Source: a bacterium HR37
GTDB lineage: Bacteria > Desulfobacterota_D > UBA1144 > Nemesobacterales > CSP1-2
Reading direction: 5' to 3'
Length of the DNA stretch: 64,000 nucleotides
NCBI GenBank assembly: GCA_002898375.1
Contig: BEIN01000010.1
Location: 1 to 64,000 of the forward strand
The notes under the pieces were generated by a model. That model saw only the letters and a program-made list of their open reading frames with translations. It did not search any database and was not told where the DNA came from. Shown piece after piece: positions 8,502-36,414 of this stretch (positions are counted from its first letter, which is position 1; each line of letters starts with the position of its first letter). Both the position numbers and the translations under genes were made by a program.

Positions 8502-8891
8502 TTATCGTAAGATACGTATATCTATCTTCAAATTAAGCTTAGACCATGTTTTATCAGCGGTCAAAACAGGTAAACCAAGTTTTAAACCAAGGCAAAGGCA
8601 TGCTCTATCACCAAGAGAAAGACCAAGCGGTCTACAAATAGGATAAAGTTCTGATGAAATCCTTACCTCATCTTCCCCAAAAGGCACCACAATTAATCCC
8701 AGTGCTTTAAATCGTGGACTTACTTGATCAAGACTTAGCCCTTCCGAAACTATTTTCGCATACACCTCTGCAAGATTTACCGCACTTATAGCTGCCCCCT
8801 TAGCTATAGCATCACTTACTTCTTTATACCCCTTTTCTTGCTTAAGATAGGCTATTAATGCTGAAGCATCTAAAACAACACAGGGTTTCAT
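8502..8891 (-). CDS. VapC-type PIN-domain toxin
   Basis: 129 residues. PIN-domain acidic residues are in place: D8 (VVLDASALIAYL), E42 (SAVNLAEVYAK), D95 (GLSLGDRACL) and D113 (LTADKTW). VapC toxins are magnesium-dependent RNases that cut tRNA or rRNA. It lies 44 bases downstream of an AbrB-type antitoxin gene on the same strand. The ribosome site is poor. No lesion is visible, so it may be the only intact VapBC pair of the island. Confidence 0.8.
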   Translation of the reverse strand: MKPCVVLDASALIAYLKQEKGYKEVSDAIAKGAAISAVNLAEVYAKIVSEGLSLDQVSPRFKALGLIVVPFGEDEVRISSELYPICRPLGLSLGDRACLCLGLKLGLPVLTADKTWSKLNLKIDIRILR

Positions 8892-11656: not shown

Positions 11657-12274
11657 ATGGCAATTGTTATTAAGGGTATTACAGTTCCATCCTTACTCAT
11701 AAAGCTTGATAAAACAAAAACAGTAGATGAGAACATCACCGAACTTGAAGAAAAGCTTTCCTCAACCTTTTTTAAGGGCTCTTTAGTGGTTGTGGACACA
11801 AATGATATCAACCTGTCCGAAGAAGATAAAAGAAGGATTGAAGAGACCCTTGAGAAGCACAATACAAAGTTCCTGGGCTATCGTGTATCCAACAACACAA
11901 AAAGCAAAGAAGTAAAAAGGAGTGTGGATGAGATAGATGAGAGAAAATCCCTTAAGGTAGTCAACAAAACACTTAGAAGTGGTCAGAGGATAGAGCATGA
12001 CGGGGACGTTCTTATAATAGGAGATGTAAACCCCGATGCCTATGTTATTGCATCTGGCAATATCATCGTTATGGGAACCCTTAGAGGAATTGCACATGCC
12101 GGAGCAAGAGGAGATGAGACAGCGGTTGTCATGGCTTTAAAGTTAAGGCCTCAACAACTGCGAATAGGAAGCTTCTTTACGAGATCTCCCGATGAGAACA
12201 TCGAAATCCCGGAGTATCCGGAAAAGGCCTTTGTAAGGGAAAACCAGATTTACATAGAAAAAATTCAAACATAA
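11657..12274 (+). CDS. minC: Septum site-determining protein MinC
   Basis: 205 residues, with CGGAGAG upstream of ATG. The N-terminal half is the MinC N domain that inhibits FtsZ assembly. The C-terminal right-handed beta-helix is plain: LRSGQRIEHDGDVLIIGDVNPDAYVIASGNIIVMGTLRGIAHAG in overlapping pieces, including the GDVN and GxxRGxxHAG signatures that bind MinD and FtsZ. It is first in minC-minD-minE and starts 12 bases before minD. Length is slightly short but complete. Confidence 0.92.
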   Translation: MAIVIKGITVPSLLIKLDKTKTVDENITELEEKLSSTFFKGSLVVVDTNDINLSEEDKRRIEETLEKHNTKFLGYRVSNNTKSKEVKRSVDEIDERKSLKVVNKTLRSGQRIEHDGDVLIIGDVNPDAYVIASGNIIVMGTLRGIAHAGARGDETAVVMALKLRPQQLRIGSFFTRSPDENIEIPEYPEKAFVRENQIYIEKIQT

Positions 12275-12286
12275 GGGGAAAAGACC

Positions 12287-13069
12287 ATGGCCAGGGTTAT
12301 AGTAGTTACCTCAGGAAAGGGAGGAGTTGGAAAAACAACAATAACAGCAAACATAGGAGCAGCCCTATCCTCAATGGGAAAGCGGGTGTTAACGATAGAT
12401 GCAGACATAGGTTTAAGGAACCTGGATATGATCCTGGGATTGGAGAACAGAATCGTATACGACATAGTGGATGTCGTTGAAGGGGTTGTGGCACCGGAAA
12501 AGGCGTTTGTAAAGGATAAACGAGGTCTTCCACTCTATCTCCTTCCTGCAGCACAGACAAAAAACAAGGACTCGGTAAAACCAGAGCAGATGGTAAGCAT
12601 AGTAGAAAGGATAAAATGGAACTTTGACTATATAATAATAGACTCACCAGCAGGCATTGAGGGAGGATTTAGAACAGCAGCTGCACCTGCCAGTGAGGTT
12701 CTTGTGGTGGTAAATCCTGAGGTCTCATCTGTAAGGGATGCCGATAGGGTAATTGGTCTTCTTGAATCCATGGAGAAAGAAAACATTAAACTCATAGTAA
12801 ATAGAATTAAACTCCACCAGGTTAAAAAGGGAGAGATGCTATCTGTAGAAGATATAGAAGAGATACTGCATATTCCTAAGATCGGTATCGTTCCAGATGA
12901 AGAAAAGATGGTTGACTTTACAAACAAGGGAGAGCCTATTGTCCTCTCAGCAAACTCAAGATCAGGAAAAGCCCTTATGAACATAGCCAGAAGGCTAGAA
13001 GGACAAGACGTTCCATTTACAGAACTTGAAGAGAAAAAGGGCTTCTTAAGTCGAATATTAGGGGGATGA
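12287..13069 (+). CDS. minD: Septum site-determining ATPase MinD
   Basis: 260 residues. The deviant Walker A KGGVGKTT (residues 11-18) carries the signature lysine K11. IDADIGLRNLDMILGLE is switch I and DYIIIDSPAG is switch II. The C-terminal amphipathic membrane-targeting helix is present (KGFLSRILGG). MinD binds membrane in its ATP form and recruits MinC and MinE. Its stop overlaps the first possible minE start. Confidence 0.95.
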   Translation: MARVIVVTSGKGGVGKTTITANIGAALSSMGKRVLTIDADIGLRNLDMILGLENRIVYDIVDVVEGVVAPEKAFVKDKRGLPLYLLPAAQTKNKDSVKPEQMVSIVERIKWNFDYIIIDSPAGIEGGFRTAAAPASEVLVVVNPEVSSVRDADRVIGLLESMEKENIKLIVNRIKLHQVKKGEMLSVEDIEEILHIPKIGIVPDEEKMVDFTNKGEPIVLSANSRSGKALMNIARRLEGQDVPFTELEEKKGFLSRILGG

Positions 13070-13329
13070 TCATGTCTATACTTGGGTTCCTTAGCTTTTG
13101 GAAAAGAGATAAATCAGCTAACGTTGCAAAGGAAAGGCTTATGCTGGTTCTTTCATATGAAAGAAAAGACCTGCCCTCAGATTTTACCGAGAGGGTAAGG
13201 AAAGACCTCATAAAGATCTTTGAGAAATACCCTCAGTTTAATCTAAAAGACATAGAGGTTAACCTAAAAACAGGGTTTTCAAGAGATGAGCTTTCCATAT
13301 GCATTCCCTTCAGAAAGGACAGAAGATGA
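13066..13329 (+). CDS. minE: Cell division topological specificity factor MinE
   Basis: 87 residues from the ATGA overlap; the ATG at 13072 is better spaced from GGGG and would give 85. The order is standard: N-terminal membrane/MinD-interaction helix (ILGFLSFWKRDKSANVAKERL), then LMLVLSYERKDLP, then the dimerising topological domain. It stimulates the MinD ATPase and so drives pole-to-pole oscillation. It is last in the min operon. Confidence 0.9.
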   Translation: MIMSILGFLSFWKRDKSANVAKERLMLVLSYERKDLPSDFTERVRKDLIKIFEKYPQFNLKDIEVNLKTGFSRDELSICIPFRKDRR

Positions 13330-13350: not shown

Positions 13351-14052
13351 TTAAATATCTCTTTCCCTGATAAGGTAAAATACAAGAACAAGCATGTGTT
13401 TACATACCTCACCCCTTTCCAGATAGTCCCTACATTTACAGAAATCCCCACCCTTGGATAACATCACAGAAAACCCCATTCCCTCGTCCGTATAAACATA
13501 AGCCTTTATTAGCTCCTCTCTTTCCTCAACTACCTCCACCCTGGGAGGCTGGTCATAAAACTCCCTGATTGCCCTTACGATATTTGGTCGGCTTGCCCTT
13601 AAAATATAGTTTATAAGGTCAAGTCTAACCCTGCCAGGATTATCTTTAAATCGCTTGAAACTGTTCTTATTCTGAGCAGTATCCTTTTCTCTCTGTACCG
13701 ACTCTGAGACACACCTTACCTCTTCAACAAGCTTAACTACGGAAAAGGGTTTTTGCAGGAACCTGTTACCACTTGAGAGGATAAACTCATTTACAGATGA
13801 GGTAACAAAGATTATTCTCCCTGCAAGCTCCCTATCCAATCTCTGTACCTCTTGGTAGAACCTATACCCCCCCATATTTGGCATTGAAAAGTCTGAAATG
13901 ATAACATCGTACTTAGCCTTTTTTAGCTTTTCGAGTCCCTGAATACCATCACCTACAACCTCTACATTAAAACCCTTTGCCTCTAGAATCCTTTTCTCCA
14001 GATCCGCTATAGAACTGTCATCTTCCACAATAAGGATGCTTTGCTTTCTCAC
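13351..14052 (-). CDS. Response regulator with C-terminal SWIM-type zinc motif
   Basis: 233 residues from a GTG at 14052; an upstream GTG at 14112 overlaps promoter-like sequence. The REC domain is complete: acidic pair in VEDDSS, phosphoacceptor in DVIISDFSMPNMGG, T in FVTSS and the lysine in LQKPFS. After a basic linker comes a domain ending FCKCRDYLERGEVCKHML, the CxCx(n)CxH of SWIM zinc fingers. There is no DNA-binding HTH. This architecture is unusual; SWIM motifs usually bind DNA or protein in helicases and transposase-like proteins. No kinase is adjacent. Confidence 0.75.
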   Translation of the reverse strand: MRKQSILIVEDDSSIADLEKRILEAKGFNVEVVGDGIQGLEKLKKAKYDVIISDFSMPNMGGYRFYQEVQRLDRELAGRIIFVTSSVNEFILSSGNRFLQKPFSVVKLVEEVRCVSESVQREKDTAQNKNSFKRFKDNPGRVRLDLINYILRASRPNIVRAIREFYDQPPRVEVVEEREELIKAYVYTDEGMGFSVMLSKGGDFCKCRDYLERGEVCKHMLVLVFYLIRERDI

Positions 14053-14207: not shown

Positions 14208-14498
14208 TTGAAGGGAGAGAGAACAAAACCCGGGCAAATACTTCAGTTAAAGCTATCTGATCTGGTGAACAAGGAGATTGCCATAAAAATACACTCTGAG
14301 GTTCTTAACTGCGATGTATGGTTTTGTGGAACCGAGAAAATAGCATCCCTTGTAAAAGAAGAAGACCCACAAGCAGTAATCTACAGCATAAAAGAACTCA
14401 TAAAGCTTTTAGAGCTGGAACCAGACGTTGAGGAGATTAGAGCAATTCACAATATAAAAGCAATCTTTCCATCATCAAAGATAATTGTGGATGATTAG
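14208..14498 (+). CDS. Small hypothetical protein
   Basis: 96 residues from a TTG start with GAGGAG 6 bases upstream. It is soluble with alpha/beta character (KIHSEVLNCDVWFCGTEK, then AVIYSIKELIKLLELEPD). It has two cysteines but no recognised motif. It is divergent from the SWIM response regulator across 155 bases and convergent with the SDR gene. Function unknown. Confidence 0.6.
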   Translation: MKGERTKPGQILQLKLSDLVNKEIAIKIHSEVLNCDVWFCGTEKIASLVKEEDPQAVIYSIKELIKLLELEPDVEEIRAIHNIKAIFPSSKIIVDD

Positions 14499-16567: not shown

Positions 16568-17803
16568 ATGGCAAAAAGGGAGCATGTAGAGATCCTAACA
16601 AAGGGAGTAGACACATGGAACAAATGGAGAGAGAGTAACCCGGAGGAAAAACCGGATCTAATAGGAGCAAACCTTAGCTGGGCAAACCTGATAAATGCAA
16701 ACCTTAGGGAAGCAAACCTTCAAAGGGCAAACTTAAGAGGTGCCAACCTAAGTCTTGCTGACCTAAGCAAATCGAACCTAAGCAATACAGATTTAAACAG
16801 TGCAAAACTCAACAAGACAAAACTCAGCGAAGCAGACCTAAGCTGGGCTGATCTTACTTATGGGATGGTAAACGATGCCAATCTGGTAAATGCCTGCTTA
16901 AGGGGGACCAATTTCACGGAGGCAGATTTAAGGGCAGCGGATCTAAGAGGAGCAGACCTAAGCTGGGCAAACCTGAACATGGCAAACCTGGGAAAGGCAA
17001 ATCTAAGCAGGGCAAACCTTAAAGGAGCAAACCTAACAGGGGCAAACCTGAACTGGGCAAATCTGAACAAAGCAGACCTAAGCTGGGCTGATCTGAGCTG
17101 GACCCAGCTAAATGGAACAACTCTCATAGAAGCAAGGCTTGTTGGAACCTTCTTTACGTATGCACATATGGTAAATACCAATCTTGAGAGGGCTTTTCTG
17201 GAAAACTGTTCTATATACGGAGCCTCCAGCTGGGGTCTTAACTTAAATGGAGCTACACAGTCAGGGTACATTGTAACCCCACCGGGAGAACCAGCAGTTG
17301 TGGTTGATGATTTTGAGATTGGACAGCTTATCTACCTACTGCTTAAAAGCGAAAAACTTGGTAACTTTATCGAGAGCATAGCCACAAAACTTGTCCTGGT
17401 AATAGGGGATAGAACCGAGCGGGAAAGTGTACTGGATGAGATATGTAAGGGAATTTCCAAGCATAACCACCTTCCAGTGGTATTTGATGTTAATAGCGGG
17501 TTAGCTAATCCCCAAACCGTAGAGACAGCATTCATACTGGCTCAGATTGCAAGATTTACTATCTCGGATTTAAGCGATACAAAAAGCAATCCCCCTGAGT
17601 TGGAGCTTCTAGTTACAAATGCCTTAAGAAGCAAGGAGTATATATCCGATAACTGGACGGATAAAATCATTAAAGACATAATCAATCTGGGATGGAATCT
17701 TAAAGTACTTCGCTGTGAAGGAAAGGATTTCCTTCTCTCCTACCTCCAGGAAAAGATACTTGGCACTCAAACTCTCCATAAATCCACAACGCAGGGCCCC
17801 TAG
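16568..17803 (+). CDS. Pentapeptide-repeat protein with TIR-like C-terminal domain
   Basis: 411 residues. Residues about 30-215 are tandem A(N/D)LxX pentapeptides, giving a right-handed quadrilateral beta-helix. DNA repeats of the unit AGCTGGGC(T/A)GA(T/A)CT betray recent amplification. From about 270 a Rossmann-like domain follows (KLVLVIGDRTERESVLDEI, HLPVVFDVNS, ARFTISDLSD), resembling the TIR-like module seen after pentapeptide repeats in other bacteria. Its enzymatic activity is unproven. The combination could be a sensor or effector. It precedes a histidine kinase by 57 bases. Confidence 0.75.
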   Translation: MAKREHVEILTKGVDTWNKWRESNPEEKPDLIGANLSWANLINANLREANLQRANLRGANLSLADLSKSNLSNTDLNSAKLNKTKLSEADLSWADLTYGMVNDANLVNACLRGTNFTEADLRAADLRGADLSWANLNMANLGKANLSRANLKGANLTGANLNWANLNKADLSWADLSWTQLNGTTLIEARLVGTFFTYAHMVNTNLERAFLENCSIYGASSWGLNLNGATQSGYIVTPPGEPAVVVDDFEIGQLIYLLLKSEKLGNFIESIATKLVLVIGDRTERESVLDEICKGISKHNHLPVVFDVNSGLANPQTVETAFILAQIARFTISDLSDTKSNPPELELLVTNALRSKEYISDNWTDKIIKDIINLGWNLKVLRCEGKDFLLSYLQEKILGTQTLHKSTTQGP

Positions 17804-17859: not shown

Positions 17860-19110
17860 ATGCTAAAAGAGAGGTTTTGGGCATCTCTTGTACTTAGCTC
17901 AATTACGATCCTTGTATCTATCTTTTTAATATGGGAACTTATAGAAAAGAACTTCTTTAAAAACCTTGACTACAAAACCCTTCATTTTCTCTATATTACC
18001 CGTGGTATAGCAGCCTCCTCTCTACTTGCTGCCTGGGCCGTGTGGTTTATATGGAAAGAGAAACTAAGGTATCAGGAGCTCTTTAACAGGATAATCAACA
18101 ACTCACTTGATGCCATTCTGATTTACGACAAACTAGGAAATGTAATTACAATGAACAAAACCGCAAGAGAGCTGTTTTGCTCTACGGGGAAAGAGCTAAG
18201 AACCGTCTGGGAAACCATTCCACCGGAGAGTAAGGCTACCTTTCCTACACTGCTGGAAGAGGTAAAGAAAGGCAGGAAACTGGTAGACCACGAGACCGAG
18301 AAGATACTTCACGATGGAAGAAAGATACCGGTAAGTATAGGGCTTATATACCTAAACGGTAAAGATGGGAAGTTTATAGAGACGGTAAGAGACATAAGGG
18401 AAAAGATTGCCCTTCAGAACAAGATAATAGAGATTGAAAAAGACCAGCTAATAGGAAAGATGGCAGAGGGGATTGCACATCATATGGGAACCCCTCTTGC
18501 TTCCATGCTTCTTCGCATTCAGATGCTAAAAGAAGACCTACCTGAACACACAGAGTGTGTAACGTGTATGCAGAAACTAAACCTTGTTGAACAGCAGATC
18601 TTCTATACCCAGAAGGTGATTCAAAGGCTCCTTAGATTTGCAAGACGACCTACAAACGAAAGGCATTCGGAAAAGGTTTCCTTAATCCTTAAAGAGGGCA
18701 TAGAGATAATAAAACCCCTTATTAACAAAAGGAGGATAGAGCTTGAGCTACATACAGAAGATGATATAAACATTCAGGCCGATAGCAACCTACTGGGGTT
18801 GGTTTTCTCTGATATAATGATGAATGCAATTGATGCAATGCCTGAGGGAGGAAAACTCTCTGTACGCTTACACAGGGTGGATAAAGACACAGCAGAAGTG
18901 CTAATATCGGATACTGGAACGGGGATACCAGCAGACGTACTTCCCCTTGTTTTTGAACCCTTCTTCTCCACAAAACCCTCGGGCAAAGGAACAGGGCTTG
19001 GACTCTTTATAGCAAAGAGAGTAATAAGCGAACACGGAGGCACAATACACATAGAGAGTGTGGAAGGCAAGGGAACAAGTGTTTTTATAAGACTCCCAAT
19101 TATTGAATAG
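17860..19110 (+). CDS. Membrane PAS-domain sensor histidine kinase
   Basis: 416 residues: two N-terminal membrane helices (about 9-27 and 43-66) with a short periplasmic loop, a PAS domain (ELFNRIINNSLDAILIYDKLG), then a HisKA-type dimerisation helix. The H-box reads EGIAHHMGTPLASML, an atypical version of the usual HExxNPL. Between the two dimerisation helices lies CVTC. The ATPase N, G1 and G2 boxes are intact (DIMMNAIDAMPEGG, DTGTGIP, GKGTGLGLF). No response regulator is adjacent. The 3' end overlaps the convergent gene by 11 bases. Confidence 0.88.
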   Translation: MLKERFWASLVLSSITILVSIFLIWELIEKNFFKNLDYKTLHFLYITRGIAASSLLAAWAVWFIWKEKLRYQELFNRIINNSLDAILIYDKLGNVITMNKTARELFCSTGKELRTVWETIPPESKATFPTLLEEVKKGRKLVDHETEKILHDGRKIPVSIGLIYLNGKDGKFIETVRDIREKIALQNKIIEIEKDQLIGKMAEGIAHHMGTPLASMLLRIQMLKEDLPEHTECVTCMQKLNLVEQQIFYTQKVIQRLLRFARRPTNERHSEKVSLILKEGIEIIKPLINKRRIELELHTEDDINIQADSNLLGLVFSDIMMNAIDAMPEGGKLSVRLHRVDKDTAEVLISDTGTGIPADVLPLVFEPFFSTKPSGKGTGLGLFIAKRVISEHGGTIHIESVEGKGTSVFIRLPIIE

Positions 19111-21778: not shown

Positions 21779-23242
21779 CTAGGCAAAAGGGGGCTTTCTA
21801 CGAGTCCAACTCGTATGGATCTCGTAATTATGTCCTACGCGCAGTATGGTTTCCTCATCAAAAGGCTTACCAAGTATCTGCAATCCAATTGGAAGCCCTT
21901 CGGAGTTAAATCCACACGGAACCGAGATACCGGGAAGACCTGCAAGGTTACAGGGAATCGTAAATATATCCGATAGGTACATCTTGAGTGGGTCATCTAT
22001 CTTCTCCCCGATCCTAAATGCAACCTCAGGCGAGGTGGGGGTCATAATTACATCCACTCTTTCAAAGGCCTTTTCAAAGTCCCTTTTAATCAGTGTTCTT
22101 ACCCGCTGAGCCTTAAGATAATAAGCATCGTAGTAACCTGCAGAAAGTGCATATGTACCTATCATAATCCTTCTCTTAACCTCTGCTCCAAAACCCTGAG
22201 CACGGGTTTTTGTGTACATATCCCTTAGGGACTCACAGTGAGGGGATCTAAAGCCGTATCTTACCCCATCGTATCTTGCAAGATTAGAACTTGCTTCAGA
22301 TGGAGCAATTATATAGTATGCAGAAACCGCATATTCAGTATGAGGAAGTGAGATCTCCTCCAGATGTGCACCTAAATCCTCAAAAAAGTTTATGGCCTTT
22401 CTTACCGCTCCTTCAACCTCAGGGTCTATCCCCTTTATAAAGTACTCCTTTGGAATTCCTATTCTTAAACCCTTTATCCCCTCATTTATATGCTCTGTGT
22501 AATCCGGAACAGGCAATCTAACGGAGGTTGAATCCCTAGGATCAGAACCTGCTATCACATTTAAAACCAAAGCAGCATCCTCAACGGTTTTTGCAATAGG
22601 ACCTGCCTGGTCAAGGGACGAGGCAAACGCTATCATACCAAACCTGCTTACCCTTCCATAAGTGGGTTTAAGTCCAACAACACCGCATAGAGAAGCCGGC
22701 TGCCTTATGGAGCCTCCGGTATCCGTTCCAATGGAAGCAAAACAAAGCGATGCTGAGACAGCAGCAGCAGACCCACCACTTGAGCCTCCAGGAACCCTAT
22801 CCAGATCCCACGGATTCCTTGTGGGTCCGAAGTAAGAATTCTCTGTAGAAGAACCCATTGCAAACTCATCCATGTTGTTCTTACCAACCACTATAGCCCC
22901 TGCTTCCCTTAACTTCTTAACAACAGTAGAGTCATAAGGAGAGATAAAGTTCTCAAGTATCTTTGAACCACAGGTAGTTCTTACCCCCCTCATCACGAAT
23001 ATATCCTTAACACTTAGCGGAATACCGTGAAGGGGTCCCCTGTAGTTGCCAGAAACAATAAGTTTTTCCTCCTCTTTTGCTTGGTTGATAGCCTCATCCC
23101 AAAGAACAGTTATATAGGAGTTGATCCTGGGGTCTTTCTCCTCAATTCGCTTTAGAACCACACGTGTGAGCTCTACCGGCGATATTTCTTTTTTCCTGAT
23201 GAGTTCGGAAGCCTCCTTTATGGTTAAAGAAGATAAATCCAT
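21779..23242 (-). CDS. gatA: Asp/Glu-tRNA amidotransferase subunit A
   Basis: 487 residues. The amidase triad is present: lysine in PLSVKDIF, the cis-serine in [11 protein letters not shown] and nucleophile serine in [13 protein letters not shown]. GatA releases ammonia from glutamine for conversion of Glu-tRNA(Gln) or Asp-tRNA(Asn) by GatB. It lies 14 bases downstream of gatC; gatB is about 10 kb away in this window. Confidence 0.95.
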
Positions 23243-35100: not shown

Positions 35101-35742
35101 CTATCTGGGAATGTGACCCGTTTTTTCACTCCAGAGCAGCAGATCCAGTTCATCAGGGCTTATTCCCACCTCCAGTGCAAACTCCTTAAACCTCCTCTCA
35201 ACCTCAAGATACCTCTTTCTTGTACCAGGAGGTCTTGGACTCTCAATAACCCCAAACTCATAAAGAGACCTGACTATGTGCTTATCCAAAATGGCATAAC
35301 CAAAAAAACCTATGTTCCTTAGAAAGTGGCTTGCCTGAGTGTATCCTATTCCCTTTATGTTTTTATTCAGGGCAAAAAAATCTCTCCTTTCCAGAGGATC
35401 ACCAAATGAAGAAATAAGCTCTTTTAACCTGAAACCAAACTCCCTCCTAAAATACTCCCTGGTGGTAACTATGTAACCTGCCTTTTCAGGATACCTGTGG
35501 ATGGGACTTAGCCTTTTAAATATCTCATCCTCGCTTCCGTAAATAAGAATATCAGCTATAGCACTTAACGAGGTCTCTGCTACCTTTGGCCCAACAGCTG
35601 AGCTGAGTATACAGAAAACAAGCTCTTCAAATATCCTTATGTCATCTCCCCTCTCCCAGACCTCTTTAAACTCATTAAGCCTGGCCTGTATTAAGGCCTT
35701 TTTCTCCTCGTAACGGGCCTTTAGCAACTCACGATAGTCCAT
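35101..35742 (-). CDS. Ogg2-type 8-oxoguanine glycosylase paralogue lacking the catalytic lysine
   Basis: 213 residues from ATG (an in-frame TTG two codons earlier is possible). The HhH-GPD fold matches the neighbour, with the C-terminal 120 residues nearly identical in DNA and protein. In the helix-hairpin-helix the neighbour and archaeal Ogg2 enzymes read GIGYKEAS; here it is GIGYTQAS, with codon ACT at 35340-35338. The downstream aspartate (ILDKHIV) is kept, 18 residues on. That lysine forms the Schiff base, so base excision should be lost while DNA binding may remain. The N-terminal half has diverged. Confidence 0.85.
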   Translation of the reverse strand: MDYRELLKARYEEKKALIQARLNEFKEVWERGDDIRIFEELVFCILSSAVGPKVAETSLSAIADILIYGSEDEIFKRLSPIHRYPEKAGYIVTTREYFRREFGFRLKELISSFGDPLERRDFFALNKNIKGIGYTQASHFLRNIGFFGYAILDKHIVRSLYEFGVIESPRPPGTRKRYLEVERRFKEFALEVGISPDELDLLLWSEKTGHIPR

Positions 35743-35763
35743 TAACAATATTTTACACTTATC

Positions 35764-36414
35764 TTACTTAAGAATCTCACCCGTTTTTTCACTCCAGAGC
35801 AGCAGATCCAGTTCATCAGGGCTTATTCCCACCTCCAGTGCAAACTCCTTAAACCTCCTCTCAACCTCAAGATACCTCTTTCTTGTACCAGGAGGCCTTG
35901 GACTCTCAATAACCCCAAACTCATAAAGAGACCTGACTATGTGCTTATCCAAAATGGCATAACCAAAAAAACCTATATTTCTTAGAAAATGGCTTGCTTC
36001 CTTATACCCTATTCCCTTTATGTTTTTATTCAGGGCAAAAAAATCTCTCCTTTCCAGAGGATCACCAAATGAAGAAATAAGCTCCCTTAACCTAAAACCA
36101 AACTCCCTCCTAAAATACTCCCTGGTGGTAACTATGTAACCTGCTCTAGCATTGGGAAATCGGTGTACGTGTCTGAGTCTAGAGGCAAGCTCTTCTGAAC
36201 TTGCTTCCATCAATATATCCCTTATGCACTCAAGAGATCTAAGCCCCATTCTTGCACTTGCACCTGCAGTAAACACACAGAAAACAAGCTCTTCAAATAT
36301 CCTTATGTCATCTCCCCTCTCCCAAACCTCCCTAAACTCGTTTAGACGTGCCTTTATCAGGTGCTTTTTACGGACATAGCTTTGCATTAGATCCTCATAG
36401 ATCTTTTCCTTCAT
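35764..36414 (-). CDS. ogg: 8-oxoguanine DNA glycosylase/AP lyase, Ogg2 family
   Basis: 216 residues, normal for the family. Catalytic lysine (GIGYKEASHFLRN) and aspartate (AILDKHIV, 18 residues later) are both present. VFTAGASARMG is the N-terminal recognition segment. It removes 8-oxoguanine and cleaves the strand by beta elimination. The altered tandem copy lies 21 bases downstream on the same strand; long blocks of identical DNA suggest recent duplication or gene conversion. Confidence 0.88.
   Translation of the reverse strand: MKEKIYEDLMQSYVRKKHLIKARLNEFREVWERGDDIRIFEELVFCVFTAGASARMGLRSLECIRDILMEASSEELASRLRHVHRFPNARAGYIVTTREYFRREFGFRLRELISSFGDPLERRDFFALNKNIKGIGYKEASHFLRNIGFFGYAILDKHIVRSLYEFGVIESPRPPGTRKRYLEVERRFKEFALEVGISPDELDLLLWSEKTGEILK

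Follow-up and report, generated by a model that had tools for sequence, protein, structure and literature searches.

The window (the whole 64,000-nucleotide stretch of DNA analysed here) carries on its minus strand, at 13351–14052, a gene for a response regulator of 233 amino acids plus stop. The stop codon occupies 13351–13353, and the likely start is a GTG at 14052. The mechanical open reading frame is longer (253 aa, from 14112), and we placed the start at 14052 because two homologues begin at the matching position in the alignment. The protein consists of a receiver (REC) domain (13717–14037, minus strand; residues 26–132 of the 253-aa frame, PF00072), a linker delimited by alignment of the copies described below (13642–13701, minus), and a C-terminal SWIM domain of 96 aa, delimited with AlphaFold2 and PF04434 (13354–13641, minus). 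The linker varies in both sequence and length among copies. In the window copy it is basic, with a charge of +4.8 over twenty-three residues (about 121–143, the edge of this segment reaching into the SWIM part).

The gene adjoins minC (11657–12274), minD (12287–13069), and minE (13066–13329) and is convergent with them; its stop codon and that of minE are 21 bp apart. Directly upstream and divergent lies a 96-aa open reading frame without a Pfam match (14208–14498, plus strand). Farther along the plus strand, 16568–17803 encodes a protein of 411 aa in which a long stretch of pentapeptide repeats (PF00805) precedes a C-terminal part outside any family. Two adjacent 8-oxoguanine DNA glycosylase genes (PF22175) are found on the minus strand at 35101–35748 and 35764–36414. 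Their C-terminal halves are nearly identical and their N-terminal parts differ more, a pattern that suggests tandem duplication with gene conversion.

The sequence-only reading of this gene had described a complete receiver domain joined to a domain with a CKC/CKH pattern, and both parts are present. The receiver matches PF00072 with an E-value of 5e-20 and a score of 72.2 bits, the cut-off being 30.2, and its canonical residues are complete: E10/D11/D12, D54, T84, and K101, which we take to be the acidic pocket, the phosphoacceptor aspartate, the Thr/Ser, and the lysine of the REC family. The phosphorylation site is thus intact, with Asp54, the predicted phosphoacceptor, read from the sequence at 13891–13893 (minus strand). 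In the C-terminal domain the pattern is C205-K-C207-x9-C217-K-H219. These four residues are the predicted zinc ligands and lie within 13396–13440 on the minus strand (C205 at 13438–13440, C207 at 13432–13434, C217 at 13402–13404, and H219 at 13396–13398); judging from the motif, the domain would bind zinc.

Searches with the Pfam SWIM model (PF04434) scored the window copy at 15.8 bits when the whole frame was used, 17.2 bits with the C-terminal 129 aa, and 17.9 bits with 92 aa. None of these reaches the curated cut-off of 19.6, which is a detection threshold and not a defining trait of SWIM domains. Two paralogues from the same genome do exceed it, namely a stand-alone protein on contig C6 (23.5–24.4 bits) and another protein of the REC-SWIM type, encoded on contig C22 (21.1 bits). 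When the C-terminal 129 aa were compared with Pfam at E-values up to 10, SWIM was the sole match; no HTH, winged-HTH, or other DNA-binding family appeared, and the cysteines were assigned to no other output domain. All four ligands are invariant in the four copies that we aligned (the window copy, those on C22 and C6, and one from the related genome G001); the other three copies share 39–58 per cent domain identity with that of the window. Conserved positions are spread across the whole domain, beyond the ligands. The pattern CxCx(6–25)CxH turned up in 6 of 200,000 shuffled versions of the window protein. Among the 298 stop-to-stop frames of at least 60 aa in the window, two contain it: the REC-SWIM gene and one of 83 aa at 22148. 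The four copies, combined into a profile, also matched a profile of fifteen viral SWIM proteins (probability 97.4 per cent, 55 columns), a match that is partly circular because the fifteen were chosen by their cysteine pattern, so that the columns outside the pattern alone count as independent.

AlphaFold2 folded the 96-aa domain on its own at pLDDT 90.7 and pTM 0.84, from an input that included thirteen viral SWIM rows picked by motif. The model has two helices (9–15 and 18–30), three strands (35–41, 44–50, and 56–62), and two further helices (71–76 and 81–93). Against a library of viral structures, no match reached E ≤ 0.001. An unnamed protein ranked first (E = 1.5e-3), and a SWIM-type phage protein ranked second (E = 0.018, Foldseek probability 1.00, TM 0.58 over 85 columns). 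A fold search of the PDB likewise gave nothing at E ≤ 0.001, its best VIA-align Z of 3.5 being uninformative. The full-length model has a pLDDT of 47.3, too low to place the domains relative to each other. The Pfam scores of the closest paralogues and the lack of a match to any other output family support the assignment of the window domain to SWIM, and the SWIM-type viral protein near the top of the fold matches agrees with it.

In the window genome the domain occurs three times: in the two REC-SWIM proteins, which are 44 per cent identical to each other, and in the 90-aa stand-alone SWIM protein, which is 58 per cent identical to the C-terminal domain of the window protein. The stand-alone protein lies at about 8528–8800 on the minus strand of locus L033 (G000 contig C6) and at 1480–1752 of L001. 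One more REC-SWIM homologue was found in a second, related genus (genome G001). Across fifty-seven genomes of the phylum, a profile of the C-terminal domain matched in five, and the REC-SWIM architecture occurs in two of them, with two copies in the window genome and one in G001. The other three (G003, G008, and G019) have small SWIM proteins or fragments without a receiver. On contig C7 of G019 (loci L043, L049, and L052), a small SWIM gene resembling the G008 protein is split across two frames, perhaps by a frameshift or as a pseudogene.

A widened profile run against 386 genomes, mostly from outside the phylum, added one stand-alone protein (G100) and no REC-SWIM. The Pfam SWIM model gave ninety-eight matches in 80 of these 386 genomes. 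We scanned ninety-four with a receiver profile that recovered four of four positive controls; the remaining four (two from the window genome and one each from G008 and G019) were examined separately. None of the ninety-four had a receiver. Ninety-three of them were effectively readable (one, L147, is merely a 16-aa frame), and long frames were cut at locus ends, where a distant receiver could be missed. In another phylum, SWIM matches numbered 103 in 75 of 246 genomes, and the twenty-eight with open frames of 170–385 aa had no receiver. Together these make 121 readable SWIM frames without a detectable receiver, some of which are truncated where the locus stops. Both surveys underestimate the number of weak SWIM domains, since even the window copy falls short of the threshold used. 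SWIM frames from at least eighty viral loci, found by cysteine pattern, also gave no receiver match. In viral contigs, confirmed matches came to 1 of 17 for the SWIM alignment, 0 of 6 for the window protein, and 4 of 75 for the REC alignment, all four being REC relatives. Plasmids and phages yielded no match. Two scans for close relatives of the domain in contigs of 84,980 species, which may omit near relatives of the window genome, gave 586 and 21 pattern matches, and none was confirmed. The proposal that a SWIM module is unusual as the output of a response regulator is therefore supported by these surveys. The accompanying view of SWIM as a helicase- and transposase-associated module proved too narrow, given the many stand-alone SWIM proteins, for example in viral contigs.

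In a phylogeny of receiver domains, the three REC-SWIM receivers fall in a clade of nine with support of 100/100, together with five single-domain receivers from G001, G004, and G005 (the same family as the window genome) and one receiver from G020, a 121-aa frame from the same order. Single-domain receivers of about 120–147 aa from sister genera (L036, L037, L038, L148, and L149) form one clade with the REC-SWIM receivers. Since the receiver groups with single-domain regulators of its own family, the gene points to a fusion, specific to this lineage, of two modules that already existed. On the tree, a family-specific REC-only regulator may have acquired a SWIM domain, or may share ancestry with a form that did. 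We searched all six frames before the stand-alone SWIM gene on C6 for a receiver remnant and found none; the in-frame sequence upstream is full of stops, and there is thus no trace of a recent fission. The REC-SWIM receivers are not monophyletic in the best tree, with a single clade not rejected (p-AU = 0.273); for the SWIM part, which has long branches, the corresponding value is 0.094. Both one fusion and several would be compatible with these trees.

The G001 homologue offers some indication of a kinase partner. Its gene is followed, 155 bp downstream and on the same strand, by one for a hybrid histidine kinase (1134 aa; REC-GAF-PAS repeats-HisKA-HATPase-REC), and their shared direction and close spacing suggest a kinase–regulator pair. 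No kinase lies directly beside the gene in the window genome, nor does that genome encode a clear orthologue of the G001 kinase, the best match showing 30 per cent identity over query residues 312–1130. The window does encode, at 17860–19110 on the plus strand, a PAS histidine kinase whose N-terminus is hydrophobic and which has no response regulator gene next to it. It is a possible partner for the orphan REC-SWIM protein.

We interpret the window protein as a two-domain response regulator in which the SWIM zinc module serves as a phosphorylation-switched output that binds a partner macromolecule, a reading to which we give a probability of about 0.6. A histidine kinase would phosphorylate Asp54 of the receiver, which would alter the conformation of the receiver or cause it to dimerise. 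This change would in turn expose, pair, or hide the SWIM domain, which would then bind its partner. The arrangement would have arisen when a family-specific single-domain receiver was joined to a SWIM domain of the kind present on its own, as the 90-aa protein, in the same genome. A protein partner seems somewhat more likely than DNA, because the domain is near neutral (charge −0.2 in the window copy and −2.1 to +0.6 across all four copies), the basic linker is not conserved, and the SWIM proteins Shu2 and SWS1 work through protein contacts. One speculative extension, which we regard as improbable, is that the SWIM domain acts as an adaptor docking on a nucleoprotein machine such as a RecA-like filament (compare the eukaryotic Shu complex). 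The stand-alone protein of 90 aa would then compete with it or partner it, and recombination or chromosome processing would come under direct kinase control.

A serious competitor to this reading is that the output is DNA binding after all: phosphorylation would dimerise the receiver, two SWIM domains would bind a DNA site, and the protein would be an unusual transcription factor. Response regulators act mostly on DNA, SWIM was originally suggested to bind either DNA or protein, and the linker is basic in the window copy. That linker is not kept among the copies, however, the near-neutral charge of the domain in all four copies weakly disfavours DNA binding, and the Pfam search retrieved no DNA-binding family, HTH or otherwise. 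We consider this alternative a real possibility, though a less probable one. We are considerably more doubtful that the SWIM cysteines serve to sense metal or redox conditions, so that the protein would combine kinase input with information on zinc or redox and its stand-alone paralogue would be the sensor by itself. The CCCH ligands are indeed conserved even in the 90-aa stand-alone protein, but conservation runs over the whole domain and does not single them out, and structural zinc sites of the SWIM kind are normally non-sensing.

Two further explanations fare worse. The position of the gene, convergent with minCDE and 21 bp from it between stop codons, could mean that the regulator is part of the Min system and governs where the cell divides. 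We detected minE in three of eight related genomes (G001, G008, and G019), and none of the three has a receiver gene within about 1.5 kb of it; the other two REC-SWIM genes, on C22 and in G001, are not located at minCDE. The adjacency noted by the sequence-only reading is thus real, but because the region downstream of minCDE in the three other genomes lacks a receiver gene, we give the linkage no weight and reject it as a functional connection; a Min role is very unlikely. The remaining explanation, that CKC/CKH came about by chance or is a degenerate remnant with no function, could draw on the window copy's score below the Pfam cut-off. It is largely refuted by the rarity of the pattern in shuffled sequences, by ligands that stay invariant in four of four copies at 39–58 per cent identity, and by the high pLDDT of the predicted fold.

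Bacterial response regulators end mostly in HTH, enzymatic, or cyclic-di-GMP domains, and a SWIM output would extend this list by a zinc adaptor module. Neither a SWIM output in a response regulator nor the term REC-SWIM turned up in the text available to our literature search, with the main bacterial output-domain censuses outside its scope. The two parts are known, and within the material searched their combination appears to be new. It suggests a new, though probably lineage-specific, readout of two-component signals. As REC-only, SWIM-only, and REC-SWIM proteins coexist in one lineage, they provide a natural test set for the birth of a signalling output by fusion and for what bacterial SWIM domains bind.

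Among known systems, the response regulators of the OmpR, NarL, and NtrC types carry a C-terminal HTH or winged HTH, which is not matched in the window protein. Its closest counterparts on the receiver side are the single-domain CheY-like regulators of G001, G004, and G005, which share the 100/100 clade and, among the matches listed, have 45–56 per cent identity to the window receiver; they stop after the receiver, whereas the window protein continues into SWIM. On the output side, the small stand-alone SWIM proteins (C6, G003, G008, and viral contigs) have the same domain as the window C-terminus, and those of C6 and G008 also share its CxCx(9)CxH spacing. They have no receiver and are not under direct phosphorylation control. 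The SWI2/SNF2 ATPases associated with SWIM (SsoRad54 type), as presented in the available text of PMC5512222, share the zinc module; the window protein lacks their ATPase domain. Shu2 and SWS1 are described in the available text of PMC6316741 as small SWIM proteins that interact with RAD51 paralogues and carry the motif CxC...CxHxxA. The window protein shares their CxC...CxH zinc ligands, but it is bacterial and fused to a receiver, and the alanine of CxHxxA is replaced by V222 (L, V, and V in the other three copies), so that we do not count its domain as a Shu2/SWS1 member. A census of archaeal response regulators (PMC5847659), whose main text does not contain the word SWIM, describes, in the text available, regulators with lineage-specific, narrowly distributed output domains, which are expected to act through dimerisation or partner binding. 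In joining a receiver to a narrowly distributed output domain, REC-SWIM resembles these archaeal proteins.
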